From contig CALHDG010000100.1 in NCBI GenBank assembly GCA_938023075.1, positions 1 through 45,778 on the forward strand: a stretch of DNA of 45,778 nucleotides. The letters are read 5' to 3'. The stretch is from an uncultured Chitinophagales bacterium. GTDB lineage: Bacteria > Bacteroidota > Bacteroidia > Chitinophagales > JAHDHT01. Under the pieces are notes generated by a model. The model was not told the DNA's origin. It worked only from the letters and a program-made list of their open reading frames with translations, and did no database searches. Position numbers and translations under genes: made by a program. Below, piece after piece: positions 8,708 through 22,940 of this stretch; the first letter of the stretch is position 1, and the number at the start of each line of letters is the position of its first letter.

Positions 8708-11050
8708 ATGCCAAAAAAAGCAGTATATACCAACGTTGGAGACCGGAAGCTAAAGCTGACCAATTTAGAGAAGGTGTTGTATCCGCAAGCACACATTGTT
8801 AAAGCCGAATTAATTGAATATTATGCTAAAATTGCACCGACTATGTTGCCTTATGTTAGTGGTCGTCCATTATCGTTTGTGCGTTTTCCTGATGGGATTG
8901 ACCAACACCGCTTTTTTCAAAAAGACCGCCCCTCGTGGACACCGGAATGGATACAAAGCGTGCAGTTAAGTCAGGCAACAGATGAAAAAAATTACCTGAT
9001 TGCGGAAGAAAATGCCTCTTTAGTTTGGATGGCAAATATGGCTTGCCTTGAACTGCATTGTATGCAGGTAGACAAGTTCAATCTTCATAAACCGGATTAT
9101 TTTGTGTTTGATTTAGACCCACCCGAAGAAGCCGGTTTTGAATTGGTGAAAGACATTGCCCAACAACTGAAACCTTTTTTAGAATCTTACGGATATACGC
9201 CTTATTTAAAAACAAGTGGTGGAAAAGGTTTACATATTATATGCCCCATTCACGCAAAATGGACTATTGAAACAGTTGTAAATACGGCTAAGGCATTGGC
9301 AAAAGAATTTCAAAAGAAGAACAAAGCAACTACCACTTTACATATACAAAAAAATGCCCGAAAGGGCAGGTTGTTATTAGATATTTACCGCAATCATAAA
9401 GGGCAAACTACGGTGGCTGCTTATTCCACACGCGGAAAACCGAATGCGCCAGTTTCTATGCCGATTCATTGGAATTTTTTGGAAAAATTGGAAGCTTCTA
9501 ATCAATTTACTATTAGAAATACCTTTGCTTTTATTGACGAATATGGTTTACCTTGGAAAGATTGGAAAACCACCGCCGTTGATTTACATACCGAAAAAAT
9601 AGCTACTCCCCCACCCCATCAACCTTCAAAAAGCACAACGGATAATGATTTACTCAAAAGCTACGAAGCCAAAAGAGATTTTACCAAAACGCCCGAACCC
9701 AATTTAAAAGCCTCAAGCAATTCGAATACTGCCAACGATCAATTTGTGGTTCATTTACATGATGCCACCAATTTACATTTTGATTTACGCTTACAAGCAG
9801 ATGGCGTATTGTACAGTTGGGCAATTCCAAAGGGAATTCCTGCAAAAGTTGGGATAAAACGCTTGGCTATTCAAACTGAACCCCATCCTATACAATACTT
9901 AGACTTTGAAGGCATCATACCTAAAGAAGCATACGGCGGTGGCGAAATGTGGGTTTTTGCAAGAGGAAGCTATCTTACCAAAAATAAAAAAAATACCAAA
10001 TGGACATTTACGCTCAACAGTAAAAATTTATCTGGCGATTATACAATCTACCGTCTAAAAGAAGATCAATGGCTGTTAGAAAAAAAGTCTAGCTCGGCTA
10101 AACCCGCATTAACCGAAAAGCTGCCTGTACCCATGCTTGCCGAAAGCAGTAAAAAATTAAACCTCCAACCCAATTATGTCTATGAAATAAAATGGGACGG
10201 AATTCGCGTGCTGATTATTAAAGAAGCCGACACCATTAAAATAAAAAGTCGCAGTGGCAGAGACATTACCGTCCACTTTCCGGAAATAGTTAAAGACGCC
10301 GACCAACTAAAAACAGAATCGGGTATTTTTGATGGAGAGATTGTTTGTGTAGATGCCGAAGGAAAACCTGATTTTGCCAAAGTTATTTCCAGAATGCATT
10401 CGAGAGGAACGGATAATATTTTGAAGAAATCAAAATCGAACCCGGCTTATGCCTACTTGTTTGATTGCTTGCATTTTGGTGGCATCAATATTTGTAATGA
10501 ACCTTTATGGAAAAGAAAAGCATGGTTGAAAGCTGCATTAAAAAAAGGGAAGCATTATCGTTTTAGTGAAGCTATTGACGATGGACAAGAGCTATGGGAA
10601 GCTGCCAAAAAAATGGGTTTAGAAGGTATTATGCTTAAAAACAAAAACGCCCCTTACGAACCCGGTAAACGTTGCAGCCATTGGATAAAAATTAAATTTA
10701 GAAATACTCAAGACTATCATATTATTGGTTATACCGATGGTGAAGGCGACCGGATAAAACTGTTTGGAGCTTTGCATGTTGTTGAAATGGTTAACGACAA
10801 AATGATTTATAGAGGCAAAGTAGGCAGTGGTTTTAATCAAGAAAGTATGCAACATATTTTACTTTTACTTAAACAACAAGGAAAATCTAAAAAACCAATA
10901 AAAGATAAAATTGATGAGGAACGCAAAAGCCATTGGATAAACCCCGGCTTAGTTTGCGAAATTGAATATGCCAGTATGACAAAAAATGGCACCTTGCGCG
11001 AACCAGTTTTTTTAAGATTACGAGAAGACCTGTTTACTGAAAAATATTAA
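8708..11050 (+). CDS. ligD: Multifunctional ATP-dependent DNA ligase LigD (POL-PE-LIG)
   Basis: This 780-aa protein contains the three LigD modules in the order polymerase, phosphoesterase, ligase. The polymerase/primase module has the metal-binding FDLDP (D135, D137) and SGGKGLHI. The 3'-phosphoesterase module starts at about residue 345 with HLHDATNLHFDLRL and includes GGGEMW. The ligase module has the nucleotidyl lysine in KWDGIR (K495) and a later EGIMLKNK. LigD repairs double-strand breaks by non-homologous end joining with Ku. The order is the mycobacterial one rather than that of Pseudomonas. ATG 8708 is chosen over a TTG four codons upstream. No ku gene lies in the window. The gene stands alone and converges on rpsT. 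All catalytic motifs are intact. Confidence 0.97.
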   Translation: MPKKAVYTNVGDRKLKLTNLEKVLYPQAHIVKAELIEYYAKIAPTMLPYVSGRPLSFVRFPDGIDQHRFFQKDRPSWTPEWIQSVQLSQATDEKNYLIAEENASLVWMANMACLELHCMQVDKFNLHKPDYFVFDLDPPEEAGFELVKDIAQQLKPFLESYGYTPYLKTSGGKGLHIICPIHAKWTIETVVNTAKALAKEFQKKNKATTTLHIQKNARKGRLLLDIYRNHKGQTTVAAYSTRGKPNAPVSMPIHWNFLEKLEASNQFTIRNTFAFIDEYGLPWKDWKTTAVDLHTEKIATPPPHQPSKSTTDNDLLKSYEAKRDFTKTPEPNLKASSNSNTANDQFVVHLHDATNLHFDLRLQADGVLYSWAIPKGIPAKVGIKRLAIQTEPHPIQYLDFEGIIPKEAYGGGEMWVFARGSYLTKNKKNTKWTFTLNSKNLSGDYTIYRLKEDQWLLEKKSSSAKPALTEKLPVPMLAESSKKLNLQPNYVYEIKWDGIRVLIIKEADTIKIKSRSGRDITVHFPEIVKDADQLKTESGIFDGEIVCVDAEGKPDFAKVISRMHSRGTDNILKKSKSNPAYAYLFDCLHFGGINICNEPLWKRKAWLKAALKKGKHYRFSEAIDDGQELWEAAKKMGLEGIMLKNKNAPYEPGKRCSHWIKIKFRNTQDYHIIGYTDGEGDRIKLFGALHVVEMVNDKMIYRGKVGSGFNQESMQHILLLLKQQGKSKKPIKDKIDEERKSHWINPGLVCEIEYASMTKNGTLREPVFLRLREDLFTEKY

Positions 11051-11082
11051 TTGATTGATTGCCAATTATAAATGCTCGCCAA

Positions 11083-11113
11083 CAAAAAAAGCCCACCTTA
11101 TAAAAGGCAGGCT
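11083..11113 (-). terminator. Intrinsic terminator after rpsT
   Basis: Read on the minus strand, AGCCTGCCTTTTATAAGGTGGGCT folds as a 4+4-bp stem with a 2-nt internal mismatch and is followed directly by seven T residues. It is placed 27 nt after the rpsT stop and may also slow ligD transcripts from the other side. Confidence 0.75.
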
Positions 11114-11139
11114 ATATCTTAAAACTATAAACTATATTA

Positions 11140-11391
11140 TTATAAGCTGTTCACAAATCTCGCTAAGCTCGATTTTAAATTGGCAGCTTTATTTTTATGT
11201 ATTTGATTTCTTTTAGCCACTTTATCAATAAGGGCTATCGTTTTATGTAATTTTTCCTGAGCTTCTCCTTTACTACTCATCGCTCTCAAATCTCTTACCG
11301 CATTTCTCATCGTTTTCGCATATAATCTATTGCGGTCTCTCACAACGGCGGACTGTCTTATTCTTTTTTTACAAGATTTATGATGTGCCAT
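11140..11391 (-). CDS. rpsT: 30S ribosomal protein bS20
   Basis: The 83-aa protein begins MAHHKSCKKRIRQS and contains the basic helical hairpin of S20, including NRLYAKTMRNAVRDL and the HKNKAANLKSSL tail. S20 binds 16S rRNA early in 30S assembly. Length is normal for the family. It stands as a single gene with its own -7 box upstream and a terminator downstream, converging with ligD. The start is ATG. Confidence 0.98.
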   Translation of the reverse strand: MAHHKSCKKRIRQSAVVRDRNRLYAKTMRNAVRDLRAMSSKGEAQEKLHKTIALIDKVAKRNQIHKNKAANLKSSLARFVNSL

Positions 11392-11419
11392 AAATAACTT
11401 ATTCTACTTTTTTGATGCG

Positions 11420-11427
11420 CAAAGATA
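11420..11427 (-). promoter_or_regulatory. -7 box (TATCTTTG) for rpsT
   Basis: On the minus strand TATCTTTG matches TAnnTTTG exactly, 28 nt before the rpsT ATG. The upstream region is A/T-rich with no perfect TTG at -33. Transcription would begin near 11413. Confidence 0.6.
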
Positions 11428-11543
11428 AAGTTTTTTTTCAAAAAAAGTAAGTATTGATGATTTATATGGGAAGTTTGCAACGCTTTAAATAGAATTAGCA
11501 GTTTACTCTATATAAAGTATTAGTAAGTTACCTGAATTATCCT

Positions 11544-11551
11544 TACTTTTG
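11544..11551 (+). promoter_or_regulatory. -7 box (TACTTTTG) for prs-rplY
   Basis: TACTTTTG fits TAnnTTTG exactly and would start transcription near 11558. That excludes a TTG start at 11549 and supports ATG 11588 for prs. It lies about 115 nt from the oppositely directed rpsT -7 box. Confidence 0.6.
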
Positions 11552-11587
11552 CAGGCTGAAAACGGTTGGTTAAGTTCGCCGCTCATC

Positions 11588-12526
11588 ATGCAAAATGAAA
11601 TAAAAATATTTTCTGGCACAGCTTCTCAATATTTATCAGAAGAAATTGCTCAAGCTTATGGTAAACCCTTAGGTGAAATTGTGTTACAACGCTTCACGGA
11701 CGGAGAGTTCCAACCCAATATTTTAGAATCTGTTCGCGGTTGTTTTGTCTTTTTCATTCAGAGCACATTTGCACCTATGGAAAATTTGGTAGAGTTGATG
11801 TTAATGATCGACGCAGCCAAAAGAGCTTCTTCAGATTATATTACGGCAGTCATTCCCTATTTTGGCTTTGCCCGGCAAGATAGAAAAGACAAACCCAGAG
11901 TGTCTATCGGCTCTAAAATGGTCGCTAATATTTTGGCAGCAAGTGGTGCCAACCGGGTAATGACGATGGATTTGCATGCCGCTCAAATACAAGGCTTTTT
12001 CGACATTCCGGTAGATCATTTAGATAGTTCGCCCATCTTTTTACCTTATTTAAAAAGTCTTGATTTAGAAAACGTAGTATTTGCCGCGCCCGATGTGGGG
12101 AGTACCAACCGGGCAAGAACATATGCTATTCATTTTCATACAGAAATGGTTATTTGCGATAAACATCGTAAACGTGCCAACGAAATTGCCTCTATGCAAG
12201 TTATTGGTGAAGTAAACGGTAAAGACGTGATAATAATAGACGACATAATTGATACCGCCGGTACCTTAACTAATGCCGCTAAAATTTTAAAAGAAAAAGG
12301 GGCAAAATCGGTAAGAGCGGTATGTACACATCCGGTACTTTCTGGTGGTGCTTATGAACGAATCAATCAATCCGCATTAGAAGAGTTGGTAGTTTGTAAC
12401 ACCATTCCGCTTAAAGAAAAATCAGATAAAATAAAGGTATTATCGGTTGCAAAGCTATTTGCCGATGCCATTGATGCCATTGTTGAACATAAATCAATTA
12501 GTAAATTATTTATACCCAAAAATTAA
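11588..12526 (+). CDS. prs: Ribose-phosphate pyrophosphokinase (PRPP synthase)
   Basis: The 312-aa enzyme transfers pyrophosphate from ATP to ribose 5-phosphate, giving PRPP for nucleotide, His and Trp synthesis. Visible motifs are the N-terminal FSGTASQYL, the flexible loop ARQDRKDKPR (about 95-104), MDLHAAQIQGFF with the conserved histidine near residue 130, and the PRPP-binding loop DDIIDTAGT at 218-226. Length matches class I enzymes. A frame extension to TTG 11549 would lie upstream of the likely transcription start, so ATG 11588 is used. rplY follows after 27 nt, a common Bacteroidetes arrangement. Confidence 0.97.
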   Translation: MQNEIKIFSGTASQYLSEEIAQAYGKPLGEIVLQRFTDGEFQPNILESVRGCFVFFIQSTFAPMENLVELMLMIDAAKRASSDYITAVIPYFGFARQDRKDKPRVSIGSKMVANILAASGANRVMTMDLHAAQIQGFFDIPVDHLDSSPIFLPYLKSLDLENVVFAAPDVGSTNRARTYAIHFHTEMVICDKHRKRANEIASMQVIGEVNGKDVIIIDDIIDTAGTLTNAAKILKEKGAKSVRAVCTHPVLSGGAYERINQSALEELVVCNTIPLKEKSDKIKVLSVAKLFADAIDAIVEHKSISKLFIPKN

Positions 12527-12553
12527 AATAGACAATACAAATATTTTTAAATA

Positions 12554-13198
12554 ATGAATACTTTCACATTAGAAGGAGACAGACGAGACACTACCGGAGG
12601 CAAAGCCAGCAGAGCTTTGCGCAGAGAAGGTAGAGTACCTTGTGTGTTGTACGGAGGAGATGAAAACATACATTTTCATGTAAGCCAAATGCAAGTACGC
12701 GATTTGGTATACTCTCCCAATTTTTACAAAGTAAACCTATCGGTTGATGGTGTAAGCAAAGAGGTAATTTTGAAAGATCTTCAGTTTAATCCGGTTAGTG
12801 ACCGGTTAGAACATTTAGATTTTTTAGAACTCAGCGAAAACCGTCCTGTAGTAGTGGAAATACCAATAGAGTTTACCGGACAGGCTGCCGGCGTTAAAGA
12901 GGGGGGTAAATTGATCCCTAAATTACGCCGGTTAAAAGTAAAAGCATTACCCGCCAACTTAATTGATAAAGTAGAGGTGGATGTTACCGATTTGGTTTTA
13001 GGTAAATCAATTAAAGTAAACGTTATTGAGTTAGAGGACATTGAAATTATGACCTCGCTTAACATACCCATTGCTTCAGTAGAAATACCAAGAGCCTTAC
13101 GAAGCGAACAATCAGCAGAAGAGGAAGCCGCAGAAGCAGAAGCTGCAGCAGCAGAAGGCGAAGGAGGAGATGCTCCAGCCGAAGGTGCCGAAGGTTAG
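12554..13198 (+). CDS. rplY: 50S ribosomal protein bL25, CTC (general stress) form
   Basis: The 214-aa protein has an N-terminal 5S rRNA-binding L25 domain (TGGKASRALRREGRVPCVLY, then HLDFLEL) and the longer C-terminal TL5/CTC beta domain (about 95-185). The last 30 or so residues are almost only Glu, Ala and Gly, a common acidic tail in this family. It binds 5S rRNA in the large subunit. The start is ATG. It shares the prs promoter and ends before a long palindromic element and a terminator. Confidence 0.97.
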   Translation: MNTFTLEGDRRDTTGGKASRALRREGRVPCVLYGGDENIHFHVSQMQVRDLVYSPNFYKVNLSVDGVSKEVILKDLQFNPVSDRLEHLDFLELSENRPVVVEIPIEFTGQAAGVKEGGKLIPKLRRLKVKALPANLIDKVEVDVTDLVLGKSIKVNVIELEDIEIMTSLNIPIASVEIPRALRSEQSAEEEAAEAEAAAAEGEGGDAPAEGAEG

Positions 13199-13213
13199 CA
13201 TCTATAAATTTAT

Positions 13214-13374
13214 TATACTTGTTTAGGTTGAGTTTTGGGCTTTTTTACTTCTGTATTTTGTGCTTAGACGATTCAAAAAATCGTTTCATAGTGGTGCTAT
13301 GGAGCTATTTTTTGAAGAAGTATAAGTGCAAAAGCCTTAGTCAAAAAGTTTAAAATTCAGCCTAATCAAGTATA
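13214..13374. repeat. 161-bp near-palindromic element
   Basis: Two 78-nt arms (13214-13291 and 13297-13374) are imperfect reverse complements, roughly 70-75% by eye, around the 5-nt centre TGGTG. The outermost 8 bp (TATACTTG/CAAGTATA) and innermost CATAG/CTATG match perfectly, and a central TTCAAAAAAT block is shared. It has no coding content. It could be a miniature inverted-repeat element or a long RNA hairpin in the 3' region of the prs-rplY transcript. Confidence 0.75.
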
Positions 13375-13377
13375 TAC

Positions 13378-13416
13378 AAAAGCGGTTGATCTTTGGTTCG
13401 CCGCTTTTTTTATTTT
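13378..13416 (+). terminator. Intrinsic terminator after rplY
   Basis: AAAAGCGG and CCGCTTTT form a perfect 8-bp stem around a 15-nt loop, and the right arm runs into TTTTTTTATTTT. It directly follows the palindromic element. The rest of the gap to the next gene (13417-13600) shows nothing that I recognise. Confidence 0.75.
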
Positions 13417-13608
13417 GAAACGAAAAAGATAGAGTATTTAAAAACGCGCAGCCTGCTATCCACTCAAATGCTATTGCTATGCTTCAAAGCCAACCCTGCA
13501 AAATAGCATAACCGCTCCTATCAGGGTTATATTGCTTACTTCGCCCGGCTTCAATAACATTTTCATCATACAAAAATTAGCATACGCCAATCTAACAAAA
13601 AATTTTAC

Positions 13609-13616
13609 TACTTTTG
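13609..13616 (+). promoter_or_regulatory. -7 box (TACTTTTG) for the 290-aa secreted protein
   Basis: TACTTTTG fits TAnnTTTG exactly and lies 22 nt before the ATG at 13639. No clear TTG is seen at -33. Confidence 0.55.
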
Positions 13617-13638
13617 ATAGGTATAAAAGCAAAAAGAC

Positions 13639-14511
13639 ATGAAGAATATATTATCTCTACTAAGTTTAATAGTTATTACTGTACTCACCTCTACTCAATT
13701 GATGGCACAATGTGAAGCAGAATCAGGATTACCCATAGCACCAGCAACTGTATTTAGTCAATGCGATGACGACATTTCCGTGCTAACCATTCAAGAATGG
13801 GAAGTTGAGCCAAGTGGAACAACCCATAATACCATTGTGGTTACCCATGCCTCCTTCAACGATACCCTTACGGTTTGGGATTCGCCCATAGTTGGGGTAA
13901 CAGAAGATGGCATATTCGACTTTACCGATATGGAGCCAGGGACTTACTGTTTTCATGCTTTTAGTTACAATCAGGCAGAATTAGATTCCATCACTAACTT
14001 CCCAACCATACAAGCATTAGCACCTTGCTTAAGCGGCGGTGAAGATTTGGGAACTATTTTAGCATGTATCGGCAGCTTAGGTATTTTTCCTTTTGCCTCT
14101 ATTAATGGTGCTATTGGCAATGTTTTAGGCGTAATTGTACCAACACAAATACCTGCATTTTCCGATGAACCGCCTTGTTATGATCCCTTGCCAGAAGGTA
14201 TGGAATACTGCATTGAGGTAACTTGTACCATTACGGATATCGATACACAGGTTTTATCTGCGATTGATTTGAAAAATCATCCAAATCCTTTTAGACACGA
14301 AACCCTCATTCAATTCAACTCCTCATTTTATCAAAACTTCAATTTTAAGGTTTATAATGCTTTAGGCTCAATAGTTTATAAACGCCATATCGAAGCTAAT
14401 AGTGGTTTGAATACTATACCATTTAACGCCTCAAATTTTAATTCTGGTGTTTATATGTATGAACTGTCTAATGCCAATAGTATTACTATTCAAAAAATGA
14501 TGGTTCAATAG
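13639..14511 (+). CDS. Secreted protein with T9SS type-A sorting domain
   Basis: The 290-aa protein has a Sec signal peptide (hydrophobic core at about 6-19, cleavage near LMAQ at 21-24) and a C-terminal T9SS sorting domain of about 80 residues. That domain starts with HPNPF, continues through FKVYNALGSIVYK and NSGVYMYEL, and ends in IQKMMVQ. The middle has several cysteines (CEAES, CDDD, YCFHAF, PCLSGG, ACIGS) that probably form disulphides; its function is not recognisable. The protein would cross the inner membrane by Sec and the outer membrane by the type IX system and be attached to the surface or released. It is monocistronic and converges with the next gene with one base between stops. 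Confidence 0.85.
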   Translation: MKNILSLLSLIVITVLTSTQLMAQCEAESGLPIAPATVFSQCDDDISVLTIQEWEVEPSGTTHNTIVVTHASFNDTLTVWDSPIVGVTEDGIFDFTDMEPGTYCFHAFSYNQAELDSITNFPTIQALAPCLSGGEDLGTILACIGSLGIFPFASINGAIGNVLGVIVPTQIPAFSDEPPCYDPLPEGMEYCIEVTCTITDIDTQVLSAIDLKNHPNPFRHETLIQFNSSFYQNFNFKVYNALGSIVYKRHIEANSGLNTIPFNASNFNSGVYMYELSNANSITIQKMMVQ

Positions 14512-14512
14512 A

Positions 14513-16111
14513 TTAAAACGATTTCATTAAATTTAATTTTGCCCCCAAAAAATAATACTTCGTATCTAAATTGTAATGTTGATTAATGGATTTAAAAGTT
14601 GATTGGAAATGTGGTCCAAACTCTACTATAAAACCATTGTCAAAATGATAACCCATACCCAAATTAGCCAGATAGCTGATGGATAATCGATCTTTAAAAA
14701 TGGATGGAGCACGCATAGAAAAATCGATGATGTTTTCTTTGTTCCAATCTTCAAATATTTGTCCTTTATAATCGAATTGTACATTAAAAGCCACTCCAAC
14801 ATCAAACCAATAATACCAATATTGTTGTTTAAATGTTTTCCCAAACAATAGCGGTACATTAACTGTTTTGTAGCGATTATATATTCGCTTTACACTTGTT
14901 TTTTCAACAATTTTGTATTTGGCAGAGTCTAAATCATCTACTATCATAAATCTTCCGAGGTAAAATTGAGCATCAAAACGTTCGGTAAGCTGAGCATATT
15001 CTATACCGGAAGATAAACGTATGCCATACTTGAAAGGTTTGCGAACCGATAGCCCAACCCTAAATGATTCAACAAAACTTTCCGAATTTTTTCTTGCATT
15101 TATGTATGACTGAACTAAACTATCATTAATAAAAATTGTGGTATCATTCGAATTTTTAAATTGCCTGAAAGCATATTCATAAGTTGAATAAAAGCCTAAC
15201 TCGAGTAACTTCTTTTTTCCTGGAAAAACCATTTGAGTTGGTGTCGTTTGTAAGATGGACAATTGATGTTGATCATTCAATAAAAAGTGCGTTCTGCTAT
15301 TTAAAAAATCGATTGTCTTTGGTTGATTGTTTATCAATTCCTTTATCAGTAAATTTTCATCTTGCTTATTTAATGAAATAACCTCACTATTGTTTGGTGG
15401 TGTTTTTGATTGATAAGATGTAATTAGATTGCTTCGAATAACGGTTTTATCTATATTATTATCTTTTGTCAACCGCCCATCTGCATCAATTTTTTTCGAT
15501 GACTTATTTGAGCTCGATTGCTTTTTATTAATCTCTTTGTTTATACTTATTGCATTTAAATTTTTAGTAGCTGAGGTTTTATTTGATATCGATACGGGAA
15601 CTAATTTTGTTTTTTCTTTATTGGTTGGCTTTGTATCACTTGATTGATCGCTAAAAGATTGCTTGGTTTGAACTCTCCGGTTAATACTTATCAAATTATC
15701 ATCAATATCTTTTCCTTTTTTTATCTCGTCGTTCTTGGGTATTTTGGCAAGATGCTTTTGCTCATTTTTGACCGAATGCTCATTTTCTTTTTCTATTAAT
15801 TGAATTGAAGGTTGATGAATAGAATTCGTGATAGTTGTAGATGAATTTGAAGTTGAAGTATTCTTTTCGGCAGACATATTATGAGCGGTTAATTCATCTT
15901 TTCTATTGGTTGATTGATTATCTGTTAGATAAAAAGCGGCACTAATAGTCAACAAAACCATTAGAATTCCCAAAGCACCCAACATCCACCAATTATATCC
16001 CGGCTTTCTACGCTTCTTTTGAATATCGCTCCACAAAGCATCGGCATCAATGGGCGAAATATGTCCATCTACTTTATTTTTTATATGCTTTTCTAATTGA
16101 CTTTCCTGCAT
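14513..16111 (-). CDS. Membrane-anchored protein with C-terminal outer-membrane beta-barrel domain, partner of the ECF sigma factor
   Basis: The 532-aa protein has three parts. Residues 1-40 are cytoplasmic and charged. Residues 41-62 (WWMLGALGILMVLLTISAAF) form a single membrane helix. About 65-290 is a low-complexity Asn/Ser/Lys/Thr linker. From about 300 to the end alternating strands such as FRVGLSVRKPFKYGIRLSSG, GYHFDNGFIVEFGPHF and the terminal YFLGAKLNLMKSF look like an outer-membrane beta barrel with a C-terminal Phe. It overlaps the ECF sigma gene by 19 nt, the place where an anti-sigma factor normally lies. A role holding or releasing the sigma factor is inferred from topology and position. 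It might instead be a structural envelope protein. Confidence 0.7.
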   Translation of the reverse strand: MQESQLEKHIKNKVDGHISPIDADALWSDIQKKRRKPGYNWWMLGALGILMVLLTISAAFYLTDNQSTNRKDELTAHNMSAEKNTSTSNSSTTITNSIHQPSIQLIEKENEHSVKNEQKHLAKIPKNDEIKKGKDIDDNLISINRRVQTKQSFSDQSSDTKPTNKEKTKLVPVSISNKTSATKNLNAISINKEINKKQSSSNKSSKKIDADGRLTKDNNIDKTVIRSNLITSYQSKTPPNNSEVISLNKQDENLLIKELINNQPKTIDFLNSRTHFLLNDQHQLSILQTTPTQMVFPGKKKLLELGFYSTYEYAFRQFKNSNDTTIFINDSLVQSYINARKNSESFVESFRVGLSVRKPFKYGIRLSSGIEYAQLTERFDAQFYLGRFMIVDDLDSAKYKIVEKTSVKRIYNRYKTVNVPLLFGKTFKQQYWYYWFDVGVAFNVQFDYKGQIFEDWNKENIIDFSMRAPSIFKDRLSISYLANLGMGYHFDNGFIVEFGPHFQSTFKSINQHYNLDTKYYFLGAKLNLMKSF

Positions 16112-16647
16112 GATACCTCTTTTTCAAGTTCAATAATTTTTTTTCTTAAAATGTTTTTAGCCCGCGCTAAGTTCGATCGGGAAGTCGCTTCATTAATGCT
16201 TAGTTGACCGGCAATTTCTTTGTGGCTAAAGCCATCTATTACTTTTAAATTGAAAACTGTTCTGTATTGCGTGGGTAATTTTGCAATTAAAGCAATAAGC
16301 TCATCGGTACTCATCTTTTCTAAGGCTAAAGGCTCTTTACTTTCTACCTGATTGGCTTCTTCATTAATCGGTATTGCAAATATTTTTTTAGAGCGGTTGT
16401 GTTGCAATGCCACATTAATGGTTACCCTTTTTAACCATGCATCTAACATGCCTTTTGCTACATCATATTGATGGAAATTTTTGAAGATCATGATAAAAGC
16501 ATCTTGTAATAAATCACGAGCATCCATTTCACGATAACAATATCGTCGGCAAATGGTAAATAAAAGACCGGAATACCGCTGCACTAAAGCCTTTTGAGCT
16601 TCTGGTCTTTTATGTTGACAACCTGATATGATGTTGTTTATTTTCAA
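16093..16647 (-). CDS. ECF-family RNA polymerase sigma factor
   Basis: The 184-aa protein has sigma region 2 (RYSGLLFTICRRYCYREM and DARDLLQDAFIMIFKNF, with AWLKRVTINVALQ behind it) and region 4 (LPTQYRTVFNLKVIDGFSHKEI with the helix-turn-helix running to EATSRSNLARAKN). No region 1 or 3 is present, as is typical of extracytoplasmic-function factors. The only start in the right place is TTG at 16647, 8 nt after the lipoprotein stop. It overlaps the membrane-anchored barrel protein by 19 nt. The three genes are probably one transcription unit that responds to an envelope state. The target promoters are unknown. Confidence 0.92.
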   Translation of the reverse strand: MKINNIISGCQHKRPEAQKALVQRYSGLLFTICRRYCYREMDARDLLQDAFIMIFKNFHQYDVAKGMLDAWLKRVTINVALQHNRSKKIFAIPINEEANQVESKEPLALEKMSTDELIALIAKLPTQYRTVFNLKVIDGFSHKEIAGQLSINEATSRSNLARAKNILRKKIIELEKEVSCRKVN

Positions 16648-16655
16648 AAGCTATA

Positions 16656-18431
16656 TTAAAAAGTTCTTAGTGCTTTAAAAGAGCCAGAAATTGGTATAAG
16701 CTCATCATCCATATTATTATCCTTTACCATTCCTTCATAGGTGCCAATAATATAAATATCTTCTTGATCAGAGCTGATTATTTCAACTGCAATATCGCAA
16801 CTTATATCGCCTTTCCAACAAACAATTTCTATATCATCTTCGCCCGAAAAATAGGCAAATGCTCCATTTTCATATACTCCAGCAATATCTCCGCCTAAAT
16901 CTGAATTAACCAATAGCCTCATCGATTTGTAATCTAAAGAGTCAAGACCGGCAGTTTCAGCATAAATAGTAAAAGAAGAAGTGTCACGATAGGTAGTCGC
17001 ATCTTCCATTCTAAATGTTGAACCATTATAATTTAAAGTTATATATGTGTCAAGTTTACTACATAATAATACATCTCCAACATTGGTATTTTCATTTATT
17101 GAAGATTCAAATTTAACAGGTTCATTTCTAATATCATTAACATAATCAACCGCAGTTAAGCTAAAGTTTGTATAACAAGCCGGTACAATAAAAAATCCAT
17201 CACTGTTTGCATAGGTTAAGGTATTACCTTCATCTGCAGAAATGATTACTTGACCATTTGGAATAACTTCTCCTTCGCAACTTAACAATCTACCAGAAAT
17301 AAAATAAAAATCAGATAAGTCAATCTTTATGTCACCTAATGTTATATCATTTGAAAATGCACCTAAATTTTGGCTTATAGAAAAATCTATACAGTCATAA
17401 TTTTTAGAAAATGTTATTTCTAACTCCTCATCTTTAGGTATCCCACCAGAAAATTCTCCTGCATTATTGGTATAATCATAACCTACTAATGCACTATTAG
17501 CTAATTTAATACTAACCGTAATGCCTGCTAAAGGGTTGCCAATTTCATCAATCACTCTGCCTGAAATTTGAACAAGCGGAAATGGTACATCACAATTCCA
17601 AAATGAAAAGTGAGATACCTTACCTTGATATTGGTTGTTAACCAACTCCGCACTCCCTTCTTCTTCCCAATGTCCGGTTTCGATATTATAGTGCCAAAGT
17701 GGAATAGTTGAAGGAGCATTCGTTTGAAGGGTTGGATCTATAGGAAATGAAAGTGTTGCTTCTTTATTATTAGCCAAGTCCAATTGCTGACCATCACTTG
17801 TCTCTAAAGATATACTCATCATGCTATAACTAGCTAATTGTACCAATTCATTACTGGCATTAACTGCTCTTAAATCTCCGGGTATGGCTAATACATCATC
17901 ATTGTTTGCAGGATTAATTAGCCGACCAAAGACCTGAACATCACCGGCATACGGTGTGTCACTTCCTTTTAAAACAAAAGCGTTTTCAGGAAAATCAACT
18001 TCTCCTTCTAAACTTGTACCACTAACTTGAATTGTTCCACCAACAGCGGCATTTATTGTTCCAACCAACTTTTTATCTAACAATTTAATATAAACAATAG
18101 TGTTTGCTTTAGGTTTGGGGTTCACAATTTTTGATACTTCAAAATGTTGGGCAGATTGAACTTTAACAACTGTTCCCGCACCATTTAAAGTCTGTTCTTT
18201 AAACAAAAAGAAGCCATTTTCATCGGTTGTTTGTAGGTCATCATTTAAAATAACAGTGGCATTTTCAACAGGCTCATTGCTTTCGTCAACCACTTGGCCC
18301 GTTATGGAACCTAAAACTTCGTTTTCCATTAAAATGGGGGTTTCAATAACAACATCCGAATCTTTTCTACAAGAAGCGAAACCGAGTATTATTCCAAATA
18401 AAATTATAACTAAAAATCTGATGTTTATCAT
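16656..18431 (-). CDS. Lipoprotein with carboxypeptidase-regulatory-like (Ig-fold) domains
   Basis: The 591-aa protein starts with a lipoprotein signal (hydrophobic 5-18, lipobox GFASC, lipid-attached Cys21). Three segments look like carboxypeptidase-D regulatory folds: GSITGQVVDESNEPVENATV (about 42-61), ISGRVIDEIGNPLAGITVSI (about 290-309), and a weaker one beginning FISGRLLSCEGEVI. Between the first two lies a domain with PLWHYNIETGHWEEEGSA, a pattern seen in secreted matrix-like proteins. No catalytic residues are visible. It is probably anchored in the outer membrane. It is the first gene of the unit with the ECF sigma factor and may be the sensed or sensing envelope component, which is inference. 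Confidence 0.75.
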   Translation of the reverse strand: MINIRFLVIILFGIILGFASCRKDSDVVIETPILMENEVLGSITGQVVDESNEPVENATVILNDDLQTTDENGFFLFKEQTLNGAGTVVKVQSAQHFEVSKIVNPKPKANTIVYIKLLDKKLVGTINAAVGGTIQVSGTSLEGEVDFPENAFVLKGSDTPYAGDVQVFGRLINPANNDDVLAIPGDLRAVNASNELVQLASYSMMSISLETSDGQQLDLANNKEATLSFPIDPTLQTNAPSTIPLWHYNIETGHWEEEGSAELVNNQYQGKVSHFSFWNCDVPFPLVQISGRVIDEIGNPLAGITVSIKLANSALVGYDYTNNAGEFSGGIPKDEELEITFSKNYDCIDFSISQNLGAFSNDITLGDIKIDLSDFYFISGRLLSCEGEVIPNGQVIISADEGNTLTYANSDGFFIVPACYTNFSLTAVDYVNDIRNEPVKFESSINENTNVGDVLLCSKLDTYITLNYNGSTFRMEDATTYRDTSSFTIYAETAGLDSLDYKSMRLLVNSDLGGDIAGVYENGAFAYFSGEDDIEIVCWKGDISCDIAVEIISSDQEDIYIIGTYEGMVKDNNMDDELIPISGSFKALRTF

Positions 18432-18567
18432 CTTTTACATTGAGTTTGAATTAAAAAATACGATTCACTAATTTCAGCTGATATATGGTATATGCAGAAA
18501 GGAACTGAAACGATGCGTGGTTTGGTAAAAAAAAGATGTTGGATAGATCAATTAGTGGATATGAATA

Positions 18568-18790
18568 ACTTAAGTTTCGGTAGTAAAATAATTGCTGTTC
18601 CAATGTAACCTGTTCTATTGTGTTAACAAAAGCACGGGCACTTTACTACAACAAGTGAACAGGTTCGCTTGGATGATTGTATGCTTTATATGTTGAATTA
18701 AGTTTACTTAACCTTATGGAGTACTTCAATTTCCATAAATAATTTATAATTAAGTTATTATGAAATGAATACTACTACCGAAACTTAAGT
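18568..18790. mobile_element. 223-bp MITE with 18-bp perfect terminal inverted repeats and 5-bp target duplication
   Basis: The left end ACTTAAGTTTCGGTAGTA (18568-18585) is the exact reverse complement of the right end (18773-18790). Both are bordered by the direct repeat GAATA (18563-18567 and 18791-18795), the mark of a transposition event. An inner inverted pair, CCTGTTC and GAACAGG, lies around 18609-18615 and 18655-18661. There is no coding frame, so this is a non-autonomous element that needs a transposase elsewhere. It fills most of the gap between the lipoprotein and tamL genes. Confidence 0.9.
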
Positions 18791-18806
18791 GAATAATAAA
18801 GATCAG

Positions 18807-21152
18807 TTAAAAAGGATACCCAATTGCCAAATTAAACACAAAGCGTTCAGGCAGCGGAGGCGAAACAAAACGGTCTTTGCTTATCCATTTAAAACCATCG
18901 TTTCGGTCCCACTGTTTTCTTAAGGGAATGCCTAAATCACCTCTAATAATAAAATAAGAAAAATCTAACCGAAGTCCGGCACCTGTGCCGACAGCAAAGT
19001 CCGTTAAAAAGCGATTGAATTTAAAATTTTGATCAATATTGTTTTCCGGATCTCCCCGGTCGCCAATGTTCCACACATTACCAATGTCTAAAAAAAAGGC
19101 ACCTTCTAAATATTTTGCCATATCGAACCGGTATTCTGCATTAGCTTCTAATTTAATTTCACCGGTTTGATTGGCGAAGGTATTGTTGTCGCTATCCATC
19201 ACATAATCTAAACCAGCACCAACAGTTCTAATTCTAAATGCCCGCAAGCTGTTGGTTCCGCCAACATAATATTGTCGCGAGTTGGGTAATACTTTTGAGT
19301 TGCCAAAGGGGATGCCCATACCGGCAGTAAACCGGGTAGCCAACAAATGTTTTTTAGAAAAGATGCGATAGTACTTTGCCTCCGTATCAAATTTTACAAA
19401 CTGAGCCGTTTTTACCCCAAAGAGTTTTTTATCGCCTTCAGCATCGGCTTCAATAAATGAGTTTAATAAGTTACCGATCAATTCAATGCCTCCTTTAAAA
19501 TAGTAGAAGTGTTTATTATCTTGTTCTAATATTGAATTATATACATAATTATATTTGGTGCCAAATAATAATAAACGATCAAAACTTCTACTTAAAGCCA
19601 AATTCCTTTCCAACTGCTCTTCAAATTCGTCACTTTCATTAAAATAATTAAAATAACTAATTGATATTGGATTTAAGCGATGCTGATGCTTTAAAGTATT
19701 GCTCCATTGATAGCCATAGTTAACACTAAAACTGATGTTGTCATAAAAATCTGTACTTAAATAACTTCCACCACCACCAAAAACGGTTTTAGGATTTAAG
19801 TTAGTTAAATCAAAACTGTTTCTAAAAGGCAGCCAAAAACGTGGAATAGTTAAACTGCTTTGCAAACTGAATTCAAAGGCATTAATTAAACTGGCATCAT
19901 TGCTTCTGTTAATGGGTTCAAATTCCACCCCACCCAGCAAGCTAATTACAAAACGTTCGGCTCCTTTAAAAGCGTTTAAATTATTATGGCTGAGCGCAAC
20001 GGCTGAGCCTAAATTATATACATTTCGTTCGGTGCCAGCCTCTTCTGCGTTAATTTTACTGTTTACTTCTAAGTCTGCCTCAAACTCAATTTTATCTTTA
20101 GTGGTTAAAAATATAATGGCATCTAACGAGTCGTAATTTTCAACTTGGTAAGGATTAATTTGAATATTAACAAATTTGAATATGCCTAAATTAATCAACT
20201 GATTAAGTGTTTTGTTGTAGGTTTCGGTTTTAAATATTTGCCCCTTTCTAAACAAAATTGCTTCCTTTAAGGAAGAGTGCTTCACAATATCTTGCTGATA
20301 AAAATACTGAATGCTGCCAATTTTTACCGAGTCTAAATCAGCTTGCCTTGCGCCTACTGCCGGATTATAATCTGCATAAACCGTTAGGTTTCTAATAAAA
20401 CTTTTTTTGTGTTGGCTAACAGAATCTACATCATTAATCTTTAAGGTAACATCAACTTTAAAATCGTTTTTAGTACTATCAAATTCAAAAATAATATACT
20501 CTTTAGCAAAACGAAAATATCCGCTGTTTTTTGTAGCGTTGGTTAAGCGTTCTCTTTCTTCATTTAAAGTATTGAGCGAAAAAGGTTCATTTGGTTTTAA
20601 CAGACTTTCTTTCATATAAAAATTAACCACCTGGTCTATTGCTCTATTGGTTTTAGGGTAGTTAATTTCACCAAACAAGTATTGATGATTCAGATATACA
20701 TCATAGTTTACTTCTGCTCGTTTATTCAAAATAGTTGGTTCAGCCTCTACCCTATTCACAAAATATCCATTTTTAAACAGATAGTTTTTCATTTTTTCTT
20801 TTGAAGTTTCCACATCAGTTTCATCGAACAACACCGGCTCTTCAGCATACGATTCTTGTAACCAAAGTCCAATTTTTTTTTCGGCTTTTTTGGTTTTATT
20901 ATACATCCAAAGGCGTGGCGCAAAGGTGCTTAAAATACGACGATTCGGCTTTGGAGTGCTTAACTGCTTTAAATCAGCTTCCAAATCACTTTTATTTTTT
21001 ATTTTTTTTGAGGTATGCACTTTTACATAAGCATTCATATACAATACTTCACTTTCTTGTAAATATTTGGTATTGCTACAATTGGAAAAACCCAATATTA
21101 AGCAACAAGTGCCTAATAAAAACCAATATTTATGTATATTTAATGCTTTCAA
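18807..21152 (-). CDS. tamL: Omp85-family outer-membrane assembly lipoprotein TamL
   Basis: The 781-aa protein has a lipoprotein signal with lipobox GFSNC (Cys25). Next come POTRA-like segments (about 110-360; for example KMKNYLFKNGYFVNRVEAEP and TLNQLINLGIFKFVNIQI), then a C-terminal 16-strand-type barrel. The barrel carries the Omp85 signature YYVGGTNSLRAFRIRTVG and ends in AIGYPF, with an aromatic last residue. Lipidated TamA-like proteins of this form are called TamL in Bacteroidetes and help insert outer-membrane proteins, usually together with TamB, which is not next to it here. The only start in frame is TTG at 21152, directly after an upstream stop. Its 5' end abuts a divergent RNA methyltransferase gene with almost no space between them. 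Confidence 0.9.
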   Translation of the reverse strand: MKALNIHKYWFLLGTCCLILGFSNCSNTKYLQESEVLYMNAYVKVHTSKKIKNKSDLEADLKQLSTPKPNRRILSTFAPRLWMYNKTKKAEKKIGLWLQESYAEEPVLFDETDVETSKEKMKNYLFKNGYFVNRVEAEPTILNKRAEVNYDVYLNHQYLFGEINYPKTNRAIDQVVNFYMKESLLKPNEPFSLNTLNEERERLTNATKNSGYFRFAKEYIIFEFDSTKNDFKVDVTLKINDVDSVSQHKKSFIRNLTVYADYNPAVGARQADLDSVKIGSIQYFYQQDIVKHSSLKEAILFRKGQIFKTETYNKTLNQLINLGIFKFVNIQINPYQVENYDSLDAIIFLTTKDKIEFEADLEVNSKINAEEAGTERNVYNLGSAVALSHNNLNAFKGAERFVISLLGGVEFEPINRSNDASLINAFEFSLQSSLTIPRFWLPFRNSFDLTNLNPKTVFGGGGSYLSTDFYDNISFSVNYGYQWSNTLKHQHRLNPISISYFNYFNESDEFEEQLERNLALSRSFDRLLLFGTKYNYVYNSILEQDNKHFYYFKGGIELIGNLLNSFIEADAEGDKKLFGVKTAQFVKFDTEAKYYRIFSKKHLLATRFTAGMGIPFGNSKVLPNSRQYYVGGTNSLRAFRIRTVGAGLDYVMDSDNNTFANQTGEIKLEANAEYRFDMAKYLEGAFFLDIGNVWNIGDRGDPENNIDQNFKFNRFLTDFAVGTGAGLRLDFSYFIIRGDLGIPLRKQWDRNDGFKWISKDRFVSPPLPERFVFNLAIGYPF

Positions 21153-21157
21153 CTTTT

Positions 21158-21916
21158 ATGCTATCTAAAAAAGAAATTCAATTTATACGGTCGCTTAAAT
21201 TAAAAAAATATCGCCAACAACACGGTACTTTTGTTGCTGAAGGTGAAAAGTGGTTAAATGAAATTATTCAAACTCAACATCCGGTTCAACATATTTACCT
21301 TACTACTCAACTTTGGTTTGATAAATTATATTCAATACCTGCATACCGGGGCAAAGTTACGTTAATCAACGATAAGACTTTACAAAAAATTTCGCAGCTT
21401 AAAAGCCCTAACAAAGTACTTTGTCTGTTAAACCAATTTACTCCAGTAATAAATCAAACGCTTTTGAAAAAACATTTCACTATTGTTTGTGATGATGTTA
21501 GCGATCCGGGTAATATGGGCAGCATTATACGATCGGCTTGTTGGTTTGGCTATCCACAAATAATTTGTTCGCCTAATTGTGTGGATATTTACAATGCCAA
21601 AGTAGTGCAAGCCACTATGGGCACTCTGTTAAAAGTCAATATTTTAACTACTCCTCTAATCCCCCTTTTTGATCAAACACCCAACATTCCAATTTATGTA
21701 AGTAGTTTAAACGGGCAATCTTTACAACAATTACAACCGGTAAAGCCTGGTTTTTTAGTAATTGGCAACGAATCGAAAGGGGTGCGACCTATCATCTTGA
21801 ATAAAACCCAACATTTGATAAAAATAGATGGCAGCGGTCAGGCAGAATCGTTAAATGCTTCGGTTGCTGCTGGGGTTTTGATGTATTATTTTAGCCTACC
21901 GAAGGCAGATGATTAG
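21158..21916 (+). CDS. SpoU/TrmH-family RNA methyltransferase
   Basis: The 252-aa protein has an N-terminal substrate-binding part (MLSKKEIQFIRSLKLKKYR) and a SPOUT methyltransferase domain with the three family motifs: DVSDPGNMGSIIRSA (motif 1), GFLVIGNESKGV (motif 2) and GQAESLNASVAAGVLM (motif 3). It uses S-adenosylmethionine to methylate a ribose 2'-OH, probably in rRNA or tRNA; the exact site cannot be told. The start is taken as ATG 21158, where the family begins; ATG 21143 five codons upstream is possible. The frame stays open far upstream, antisense to tamL, but that part is not coding. It is divergent from tamL and converges with purC. Confidence 0.92.
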   Translation: MLSKKEIQFIRSLKLKKYRQQHGTFVAEGEKWLNEIIQTQHPVQHIYLTTQLWFDKLYSIPAYRGKVTLINDKTLQKISQLKSPNKVLCLLNQFTPVINQTLLKKHFTIVCDDVSDPGNMGSIIRSACWFGYPQIICSPNCVDIYNAKVVQATMGTLLKVNILTTPLIPLFDQTPNIPIYVSSLNGQSLQQLQPVKPGFLVIGNESKGVRPIILNKTQHLIKIDGSGQAESLNASVAAGVLMYYFSLPKADD

Positions 21917-21977
21917 AGCCAAAAGCTAGTTGATAAATAACTGACCTTTTCAATGCTGGCAACTCGGTGCTTACTTC

Positions 21978-22940
21978 TCAAAACATCTCCAAAGCCGCCA
22001 ACACATTTTTTTCAATGCGTTGTACAATGCCTTCTTGAGGTTTATCAAATTTAATTTCGTCGGGCATTAGAAAGTTGTACAGTTCGGCATATCTTTTACT
22101 CACACTTAAAATAAAATCATCGGGCATATGGGGCATTTGTTGTCCATCTTTACCTTGAAACTCATGTTCCATCAGCCACTCTCTTACAAATTCTTTGCTT
22201 AACTGTTTTTGCTTTGCTCCTTTATCTTGTCTTTCCTGAAATCCATCTTTATAAAAAAACCGACTTGAATCTGGTGTATGAATTTCATCTATTAAATAGA
22301 TGATATTTTCAAATGTACCGAACTCATACTTGGTATCTACTAAAATCAACCCTTTCTCAAAAGCTAAATTGGCACCACGTTCAAATAACCGACGGGTATA
22401 GTTTTCTAATTGTGTATAATCCGCTTCGTTCACTAAGCCTTGCGCCAAAATTTCTTCGCGGCTAATATCTTCATCGTGTCCAACTTCGGCTTTAGTAGTT
22501 GGTGTAATAATAGGCGTTGGGAAGGGATCATTTTCTTTCATGCCATCGGGCATTTTTACACCACATAAGGTGCGTTCGCCGGTTTTGTAAGTACGCCAAG
22601 CATGGCCAGTTAGGTAACCGCGTATCACCATTTCAACTTTGTATGGTTCGCATTTTCTACCAATCATTACATTGGGGTCTGGCTGGCTCAACATCCAATT
22701 GGGTACTATATCTTCGGTTGCTTGTAAATTGTAGGCGGCTATTCCGTTCAACATTTGTCCTTTAAAAGGGATGGCTCTTGGTAAAATATGATCAAAAGCT
22801 GATATTCTATCGGTTACAACCATCACCATTAAATTATTGTTCAAAAAATATACATCTCTTACTTTGCCAGCATATTTACCGGCTTGATTCGGGAAATTAA
22901 AATTGGTTTCTTTAACCGTACTGTTATCTATATCGTTCAA
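21978..22940 (-). CDS. purC: Phosphoribosylaminoimidazole-succinocarboxamide synthase (SAICAR synthetase)
   Basis: The 320-aa enzyme joins aspartate to CAIR with ATP in purine synthesis. Motifs seen are GKVRDVYFL (nucleotide loop), [22 protein letters not shown] and [14 protein letters not shown]. The length of about 320 aa matches the longer bacterial/yeast-like form. The frame has no ATG before the conserved start region, and the first usable codon is TTG at 22940, only about 10 nt after the predicted transcription start, so the mRNA is nearly leaderless. It is not in an operon with other purine genes here. Confidence 0.96.

Follow-up and report, generated by a model that had tools for sequence, protein, structure and literature searches.

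A predicted Dma-type ECF sigma/anti-sigma pair with a leading lipoprotein gene in an uncultured Chitinophagales bacterium

In cell-surface signaling of the FecR type, an outer-membrane barrel, the TonB-dependent transducer, informs a separate anti-sigma factor in the inner membrane. Zinc-binding anti-sigma (ZAS) proteins carry an HxxxCxxC motif in their cytoplasmic domain. Dma proteins, whose founding paper is reportedly a 2024 PNAS article, are the clearest case of a single polypeptide that joins the outer membrane to transcription. An N-terminus that inhibits the sigma factor by binding it, a sigma factor of group ECF21, and a distribution confined to Bacteroidota are among the traits that define the Dma type.

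A membrane-bridging type of anti-sigma factor was described in gut bacteria between 2022 and 2024 (PMC9308784, PMC13088901; both papers are cited throughout from the parts of their text that were available). In Bacteroides, the architecture has anti-sigma activity with sigma-dependent phenotypes, and the operon is autoregulated (PMC13088901, in part). The M0N98_03760/03761 pair of Phocaeicola vulgatus is induced by the toxin BcpT, and envelope stress is the proposed signal (PMC9308784, in part).

The window analyzed here is a stretch of 45,778 nucleotides from an uncultured Chitinophagales bacterium (GCA_938023075.1, contig CALHDG010000100.1). At 14513-18431, it encodes a lipoprotein, an ECF sigma factor, and a predicted Dma-like anti-sigma factor (Table 1). 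The three open reading frames lie where the sequence-only reading had placed them, with the lipoprotein gene upstream of the sigma gene, and the layout is confirmed. The lipoprotein gene ends 8 nt before the sigma gene, which shares 19 nt with the dma-like gene. Judged from the predicted structure, the locus is very probably a Dma-type ECF sigma/anti-sigma pair in which one chain would bridge the inner to the outer membrane and release the sigma factor for its own operon.

Table 1. Features of the operon and of the 532-aa Dma-like protein, in window coordinates.
Feature	Position	Strand	Details and basis
Candidate ECF promoter CACGCATCGTTTCAGTTCCTTTCTGCATAT	18490-18519	-	about 60-90 nt upstream of lipoprotein start
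Lipoprotein gene	16656-18431	-	591 aa; ORF list
ECF sigma factor gene	16093-16647	-	184 aa, TTG start; ORF list
dma-like anti-sigma gene	14513-16111	-	532 aa; ORF list
N-terminal cytoplasmic anti-sigma segment (predicted), residues 1-40	15992-16111	-	two short helices, W27xxI30, then KKRRK; AlphaFold2
Inner-membrane helix (predicted), residues 41-78	15878-15991	-	hydrophobic core 44-62; hydropathy and AlphaFold2
Low-complexity disordered linker, residues 79-300	15212-15877	-	pLDDT
Outer-membrane beta-barrel domain (predicted), residues 301-532	14516-15211	-	AlphaFold2 and structure comparison

The sigma factor matches the Pfam families Sigma70_r4_2 (E 4.8e-16) and Sigma70_r2 (E 2.9e-14), and its TIGR02985 match scores under the cut-off of that model. 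The A3 profile, which represents the sigma factor, is matched by ECF sigma factors of solved structure. The pairing is beyond chance, as a sigma gene and a barrel-type partner are adjacent in 94 of 129 non-redundant Bacteroidota loci. A 575-aa open frame on another contig of the same genome (C265) was checked as a natural sigma-barrel fusion and is not one.

Taken alone, the Dma-like protein has no match in Pfam or NCBIfam, FecR domains included; PF13568 (OMP_b-brl_2) is matched by 15 of its 38 homologues. The ZAS motif is also absent, with no cysteine found within residues 1-60. An AlphaFold2 model, based on an alignment of 38 sequences with that of the window included, has helices at residues 5-15 and 23-34 and a transmembrane helix at 41-78, and hydropathy reaches 2.24 across residues 44-62. 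The positive charge of KKRRK ahead of the transmembrane helix fits a cytoplasmic N-terminus. Nearly all residues from about 78 to 297 have a pLDDT below 50, and residues 301-532 are mostly above 90. Each of the parts proposed earlier is present in the model: an N-terminal piece, one inner-membrane helix, a linker then put at about 230 residues and here at about 220-240, and a barrel.

The barrel model aligns with the OprF N-domain at Z 17.2 (132 of 135 residues, rmsd 2.2), and other outer-membrane barrels follow with NspA at Z 16.2 and OmpA at Z 15.6. The C-terminal domain is predicted with high confidence to be an OmpA/OprF-like outer-membrane barrel of eight strands. A soluble periplasmic C-terminal domain was also considered; the model is a barrel of the outer-membrane type, and the original claim is not refuted. 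A reading in which the N-terminal helix serves as a signal peptide that is cleaved off, and the protein is an ordinary outer-membrane barrel with a long N-terminal extension and no action on sigma, is very improbable. Secreted barrels akin to this domain do exist as proteins of their own (L084, L077), but the transmembrane segment begins at residue 44, behind a conserved W/I motif, the gene lies directly 3' of an ECF sigma gene in all 38 aligned family members, and the same architecture is an anti-sigma factor by genetics in Bacteroides (PMC13088901, PMC9308784, both in part).

The W/I motif is conserved among barrel-type proteins: of 89 compared, 81 have its W and 71 its I. The short partners of these sigma factors often share it (16 of 22), which points to the N-terminus as a shared module. 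A distance-correlation test of sigma and N-terminus given the barrel gave no support for binding or coevolution and counts against the proposed pairing in that it fails to single out the N-terminus; the partial correlation of 0.129 is below the permutation maximum of 0.200. For sigma and barrel given the N-terminus, the partial correlation is 0.718.

Linker length also bears on whether the chain stays whole. Among 91 homologous proteins, the median is 195 residues and the shortest linker is 122, a floor expected if the linker has to cross the periplasm. An alternative in which cleavage within the linker soon splits the chain, leaving barrel and inner-membrane anti-sigma to act separately with nothing to bridge the envelope, is unlikely. 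The linker is long and disordered, hence accessible to proteases, and the same sigma clade has short partners that have no barrel. A separate barrel would, however, need no minimum linker length, and barrel and anti-sigma remain fused in the 94 loci counted above.

For the intact chain, the following mechanism is proposed. The N-terminal ~40 residues would hold sigma to the inner membrane, and through its transmembrane helix, long disordered tether, and eight-strand barrel the same chain would also be fixed in the outer membrane. A barrel that is disturbed or ligand-bound may cause the anti-sigma to be changed or destroyed, and the freed sigma factor would transcribe its own operon. The idea that a single chain couples the outer membrane to the release of sigma is supported by the anatomy seen here and by published genetics of the same architecture in Bacteroides and Phocaeicola (PMC13088901, PMC9308784, both in part). 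What is seen at this locus itself is the gene order, the architecture, a barrel fold by prediction, recurrence, and a promoter-like motif; sigma binding, the release step, and how the protein lies in the living cell are inferred.

The leading lipoprotein has a signal peptide and a lipobox, GFASC, with the lipid-bearing Cys21 followed by RKDSD. It is composed of beta-sandwich domains of the CarboxypepD_reg/transthyretin-like kind (PF13620, E 1.7e-17), and its AlphaFold2 model has a mean pLDDT of 83.6. The transthyretin-like domain at residues 41-120 resembles carboxypeptidase D/N (Z 12.6) and the SusC NTE (Z 12.2). Homologues are present in 47 of 198 genomes of the order. The LES surface-export signal of Bacteroidota lipoproteins consists of the Cys, a polar or positive residue, and then acidic residues, with an optimum of C-X-K-(D/E)2-X (PMC5080379). 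Compared with this optimum, C-R-K-D-S-D of the window fits in its K (+3) and first acid (D, +4), whereas the second acid comes only at +6. The lipoprotein is probably surface-exposed.

Similar genes recur at other Bacteroidota loci. Of the 94 barrel loci, 27 have a lipoprotein-like gene within 60 nt on the upstream side of sigma (L217 and L245 being assigned through an iterated profile), vs 0 of 21 loci with short anti-sigma factors, a set that includes L096, where letters are masked and a barrel piece stands in another frame, and L061, whose short partner is probably no anti-sigma. The phylogenetically controlled test of this association was without power; its lipoprotein labels were set by hand in five rows (L206 and L269 added; L215, L230, and L056 removed). 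The co-encoded lipoproteins are of at least four types, and in most of them the lipid-bearing Cys is followed by acidic residues, as in a surface-export-like signal. At least two D/E residues stand at +2 to +6 in 29 of 33 co-encoded lipoproteins, compared with 21 of 106 controls. Homology between the small and large lipoproteins was rejected because the alignment covers the signal peptide alone. TamL was dropped as a functional neighbor, as tblastn of the TamL of the window against the fetched loci found just the window's own copy (L113).

Where the lipoprotein gene is present, an ECF-type promoter motif stands ahead of it. The candidate promoter of the window is identical in motif halves and spacing to that before the L193 operon, and it resembles GCAACC-N-CATCT, found upstream of Flavobacteriaceae operons, of which 22 of 26 have the core CAACC-N16-ATCT. 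No exact dyad motif common to 15 Saprospiraceae-type operons exceeds shuffled sequences, so the promoter assignment rests on the L193 match and the Flavobacteriaceae resemblance. A promoter scan of the genome itself returned 9 sites vs 6 for the reversed pattern, which is not above control, and no regulon was identified; two candidate sites (L274, L275) have no clear target gene beside them.

The recurrence upstream of barrel-type pairs, the lack of it with short anti-sigma factors, and the promoter motif ahead of the gene suggest that the lipoprotein is probably in the circuit, as a sensor partner or a feedback product. The earlier view that the chain works without separate sensor proteins is accordingly doubtful. 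There is an even chance that the lipoprotein is a mere sigma target, an envelope-stress product that has no signaling role. In favor of this, the promoter-like motif stands ahead of the gene, the same slot is filled by unrelated lipoproteins, and known Dma regulons take in lipoproteins (NigD) as well as their own operon (PMC13088901, PMC9308784, both in part). Against this, the 0 of 21 beside short anti-sigma factors suggests a link to the barrel, though the controlled test was without power. On balance it is probably a surface-exposed circuit member, most likely as partner of the barrel or as feedback product.

The recurrence of the lipoprotein-led arrangement in other lineages hints at an extra sensing partner. 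Rather tentatively, many Dma circuits outside Bacteroides may be three-part, with the Dma barrel as the receptor of a surface lipoprotein, an interchangeable module for sensing or gating. The state of the lipoprotein (ligand bound, delivered, or lost) would set sigma activity via the envelope-crossing chain, and unrelated lipoproteins would be recruited by different lineages, even by paralogous circuits in one genome. The arrangement was not found in the literature searched, which included PMC9308784 and PMC13088901 in their available parts; it may be mentioned in the EcfO paper or in the paper that founded the Dma family.

In FecR-type systems, as proposed for the window protein, an outer-membrane barrel reports the cell surface to an inner-membrane anti-sigma. 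There, barrel and anti-sigma are separate, whereas the window has one chain with an OmpA-like eight-strand barrel and no FecR domain, and no TonB receptor is seen when ORFs of 80 aa or longer are listed over 11000-22000. The M0N98_03760/03761 pair is alike in having a sigma factor followed by a large anti-sigma with a predicted outer-membrane barrel; no leading lipoprotein is described for it in the available text, whereas the window has one (PMC9308784, in part).

There is a close likeness, by architecture, to Dma1/Dma2 with Das1/Das2 of Bacteroides thetaiotaomicron, whose plan matches the one predicted for the window: an N-terminal anti-sigma segment, one transmembrane helix, a long disordered tether, a C-terminal beta-barrel, and an adjacent ECF sigma (PMC13088901, in part). 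The window protein has the Dma traits of a single transmembrane helix after a short N-terminus, a long disordered tether, a predicted outer-membrane barrel, and a neighboring ECF sigma gene. The operon belongs to its own regulon in B. thetaiotaomicron (PMC13088901, in part), as is proposed here. The organism differs, the nearest named relative being Saprospiraceae. Among named matches, those for which a higher group is given all fall in Bacteroidota; others are titled "bacterium" alone, and most searches were confined to relatives. The census finds the Dma architecture widespread far outside gut Bacteroides. The pairing of sigma and barrel-type anti-sigma is already known, and the lipoprotein part was not found in the papers searched, as far as their available text goes. 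The dma2 operon is made up of das2, dma2, and BT_1557 (PMC13088901, in part), whereas that of the window is led by a large lipoprotein, and this recurrent gene is a concrete candidate for the missing Dma input.

The sequence-only reading placed a lipoprotein gene ahead of genes for an ECF sigma factor and a barrel-like protein. Open reading frames and domain matches bear out this arrangement. The third gene encodes a 532-aa protein resembling Dma, a dual membrane-spanning anti-sigma factor. Taken alone, this protein has no domain match in Pfam or NCBIfam, and 15 of 38 aligned homologues match PF13568, a Pfam outer-membrane (OM) barrel family. The AlphaFold2 model, built from an input alignment of 38 sequences, has two short N-terminal helices (5-15 and 23-34). 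A transmembrane (TM) helix spans residues 41-78, the linker after it is of low confidence, and residues 301-532 form a barrel with pLDDT mostly >90. The whole model has a mean pLDDT of 68.1 and a pTM of 0.50 because the linker is disordered. The best PDB matches are OM barrels. A second structure comparison gives Z 17.7 to a designed TM barrel, 17.2 to the OprF N-domain (rmsd 2.2, 132/135 residues), 16.2 to NspA, 15.6 to OmpA, and 14.9 to OmpW. The barrels of OmpA, OprF, and NspA have 8 strands. The check for a soluble periplasmic C-terminal domain, the main refutation test of the reading, therefore returned an OM-type barrel and did not refute it.

Features of the sigma locus and its surroundings
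Feature	Position	Strand	Remarks
Secreted protein	13639-14511	+	type IX sorting domain; convergent to anti-sigma gene, ends 1 nt apart
532-aa protein, Dma-like	14513-16111	-	third gene; 19-nt overlap of its start with sigma end
ECF sigma factor, 184 aa	16093-16647	-	second gene; Sigma-70 regions 2 and 4 matched
Lipoprotein, 591 aa	16656-18431	-	first in transcription order; CarboxypepD_reg domains matched
Candidate promoter CACGCATCGTT-N12-TGCATAT	18490-18519	-	found in L193 with one change
239-bp element	18560-18798		terminal inverted repeats, 26 nt
Omp85/POTRA protein	18807-21152	-	lipoprotein-like start; just upstream of operon

The Omp85/POTRA protein is TamL-like (a name matching the topic of PMC12045153), and its gene does not adjoin the operon in the relatives' loci examined. 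The MITE-like 239-bp element lies between this gene and the operon and has about 40 near-full copies in the same genome (88-95% identical).

The sigma/barrel pair is widespread. Among 198 genomes of the order, 178 have a sigma match at E 1e-25 or better, and 60 further loci were examined with the window's. A scan of named genomes added 80 loci, 78 with a usable downstream gene. The pooled 139 rows reduce to 129 non-redundant loci, of which 94 have a barrel partner by iterated profile, in a sample biased towards relatives of the window sigma. The other 35 comprise 21 short single-TM partners, 10 long unclassified, 3 cut by contig ends, and 1 other. Linkers in 91 barrel proteins have a median of 195 and a minimum of 122 residues. 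The N-terminal segment has conserved Trp (81/89) and Ile (71/89) columns; a broader W/I motif is found in 79/94 barrel and 16/22 short partners, versus 9.3% of all 2042 ORFs. Saprospiraceae, Chitinophagaceae, Flavobacteriaceae, and Bacteroidales are among the taxa named. L193 is the closest locus; it comes from an uncultured Saprospiraceae MAG, and its sigma is 72% identical to the window's. Matches to the TIGR02985 sigma family number 39 in the window's own genome. Among these, at least five loci have a partner whose barrel is matched by the profile (window, L053, L054, L055, L057), and two more have a long unclassified one (L056, L060). Free-standing secreted barrels in L084 (423-1160, +) and L077 (7732-8289, +) match the same profile, which suggests that the Dma barrel was drawn from ordinary OM barrels. 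A gene with an RdgB/HAM1 nucleotide pyrophosphatase-like start recurs upstream of sigma in barrel and short types alike (L057, L084, L086, L090, L110, L204, L239, L243, L247, L251, L254, L260).

The slot ahead of sigma can be filled by different lipoproteins. The window family is present in 47/198 genomes of the order and is followed by a same-strand ECF sigma gene in 10/30 loci, window included; where sequence suffices, a Dma-like start follows sigma in 8/8. Flavobacteriaceae have a ~137-aa lipoprotein directly upstream of sigma (L196, L206-L209, L211, L212, L217, L219, and others), with three invariant cysteines in 23 aligned members. Three members and one outlier scanned gave no Pfam family above cut-off, and profile comparison with the window family aligns the signal peptide only. 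In a separate draw from the class, this small family is found in 6/295 genomes, with sigma and a Dma-like start following in 3/6. In two further pairs of the window's own genome, the slot holds a 574-aa lipoprotein of no clear family (L054) and a 265-aa lipoprotein with SprB repeats (L055). Overall, a lipoprotein-like gene lies within 60 nt upstream of sigma in 27/94 barrel loci versus 0/21 short loci (Fisher p 0.003, uncorrected for relatedness), and in 0/10 unclassified, 0/3 cut, and 0/1 other. Mapped onto a 125-row sigma tree, the lipoprotein label (33 rows; five labels were set by hand) requires a minimum of 9 changes; for the large lipoprotein family, 4 or more are imposed by well-supported branches. 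A pair test corrected for relatedness was left with just 3 pairs and lacked power. That unrelated rows place different lipoproteins in this one position speaks for a lipoprotein role in the sigma circuit. A lipoprotein that is merely a sigma-regulated product fits almost as well. The lipoprotein is the part of the locus worth pursuing.

Two or more D/E residues at +2 to +6 after the lipid cysteine are found in 29/33 co-encoded lipoproteins versus 21/106 controls, which are pattern-predicted and include false positives (Mann-Whitney p 1.6e-11, rows related). By sequence, this acidic stretch is similar to the surface-export signal of lipoproteins, K-(D/E)2 or SDDDD/SDDFE (PMC5080379); the window's CRKDSD is a near, inexact match to it. 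The window lipoprotein is modelled as a chain of beta domains (mean pLDDT 83.6). Residues 41-120 form a transthyretin-like domain, which matches carboxypeptidase D/N with Z 12.6 and a SusC N-terminal extension with Z 12.2, and further such domains follow. Several longer structure matches are pilins and surface adhesins.

The dyad CAACC-N16-ATCT precedes 22/26 Flavobacteriaceae operons, a set not fully de-duplicated; across ten shuffles, no dyad exceeds a count of 7. The strict motif lies upstream of the lipoprotein gene in 18/32 barrel loci with a lipoprotein, upstream of sigma in 13/62 without one, and in 7/21 short loci, with shuffle means of at most 0.12 across groups. The motif thus seems to represent the promoter type used by this clade of sigmas, ahead of the lipoprotein gene where present. 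L193 carries the window's candidate promoter motif with one change and equal spacing. A genome-wide scan of the window's own genome with the promoter pattern found no regulon above control.

Dma-type anti-sigmas are already described in Bacteroides thetaiotaomicron (PMC13088901). There, loss of dma2 raises das2, encoding its ECF sigma partner, and neighbouring genes, and the dma2 operon is thus autoregulated. Phocaeicola vulgatus has a similar pair that responds to an antibacterial toxin by induction; the signal is proposed to be envelope stress (PMC9308784). The window pair is likened to Bacteroides Dma by architecture. It is assigned to the Dma type with high confidence for architecture and moderate confidence for function.
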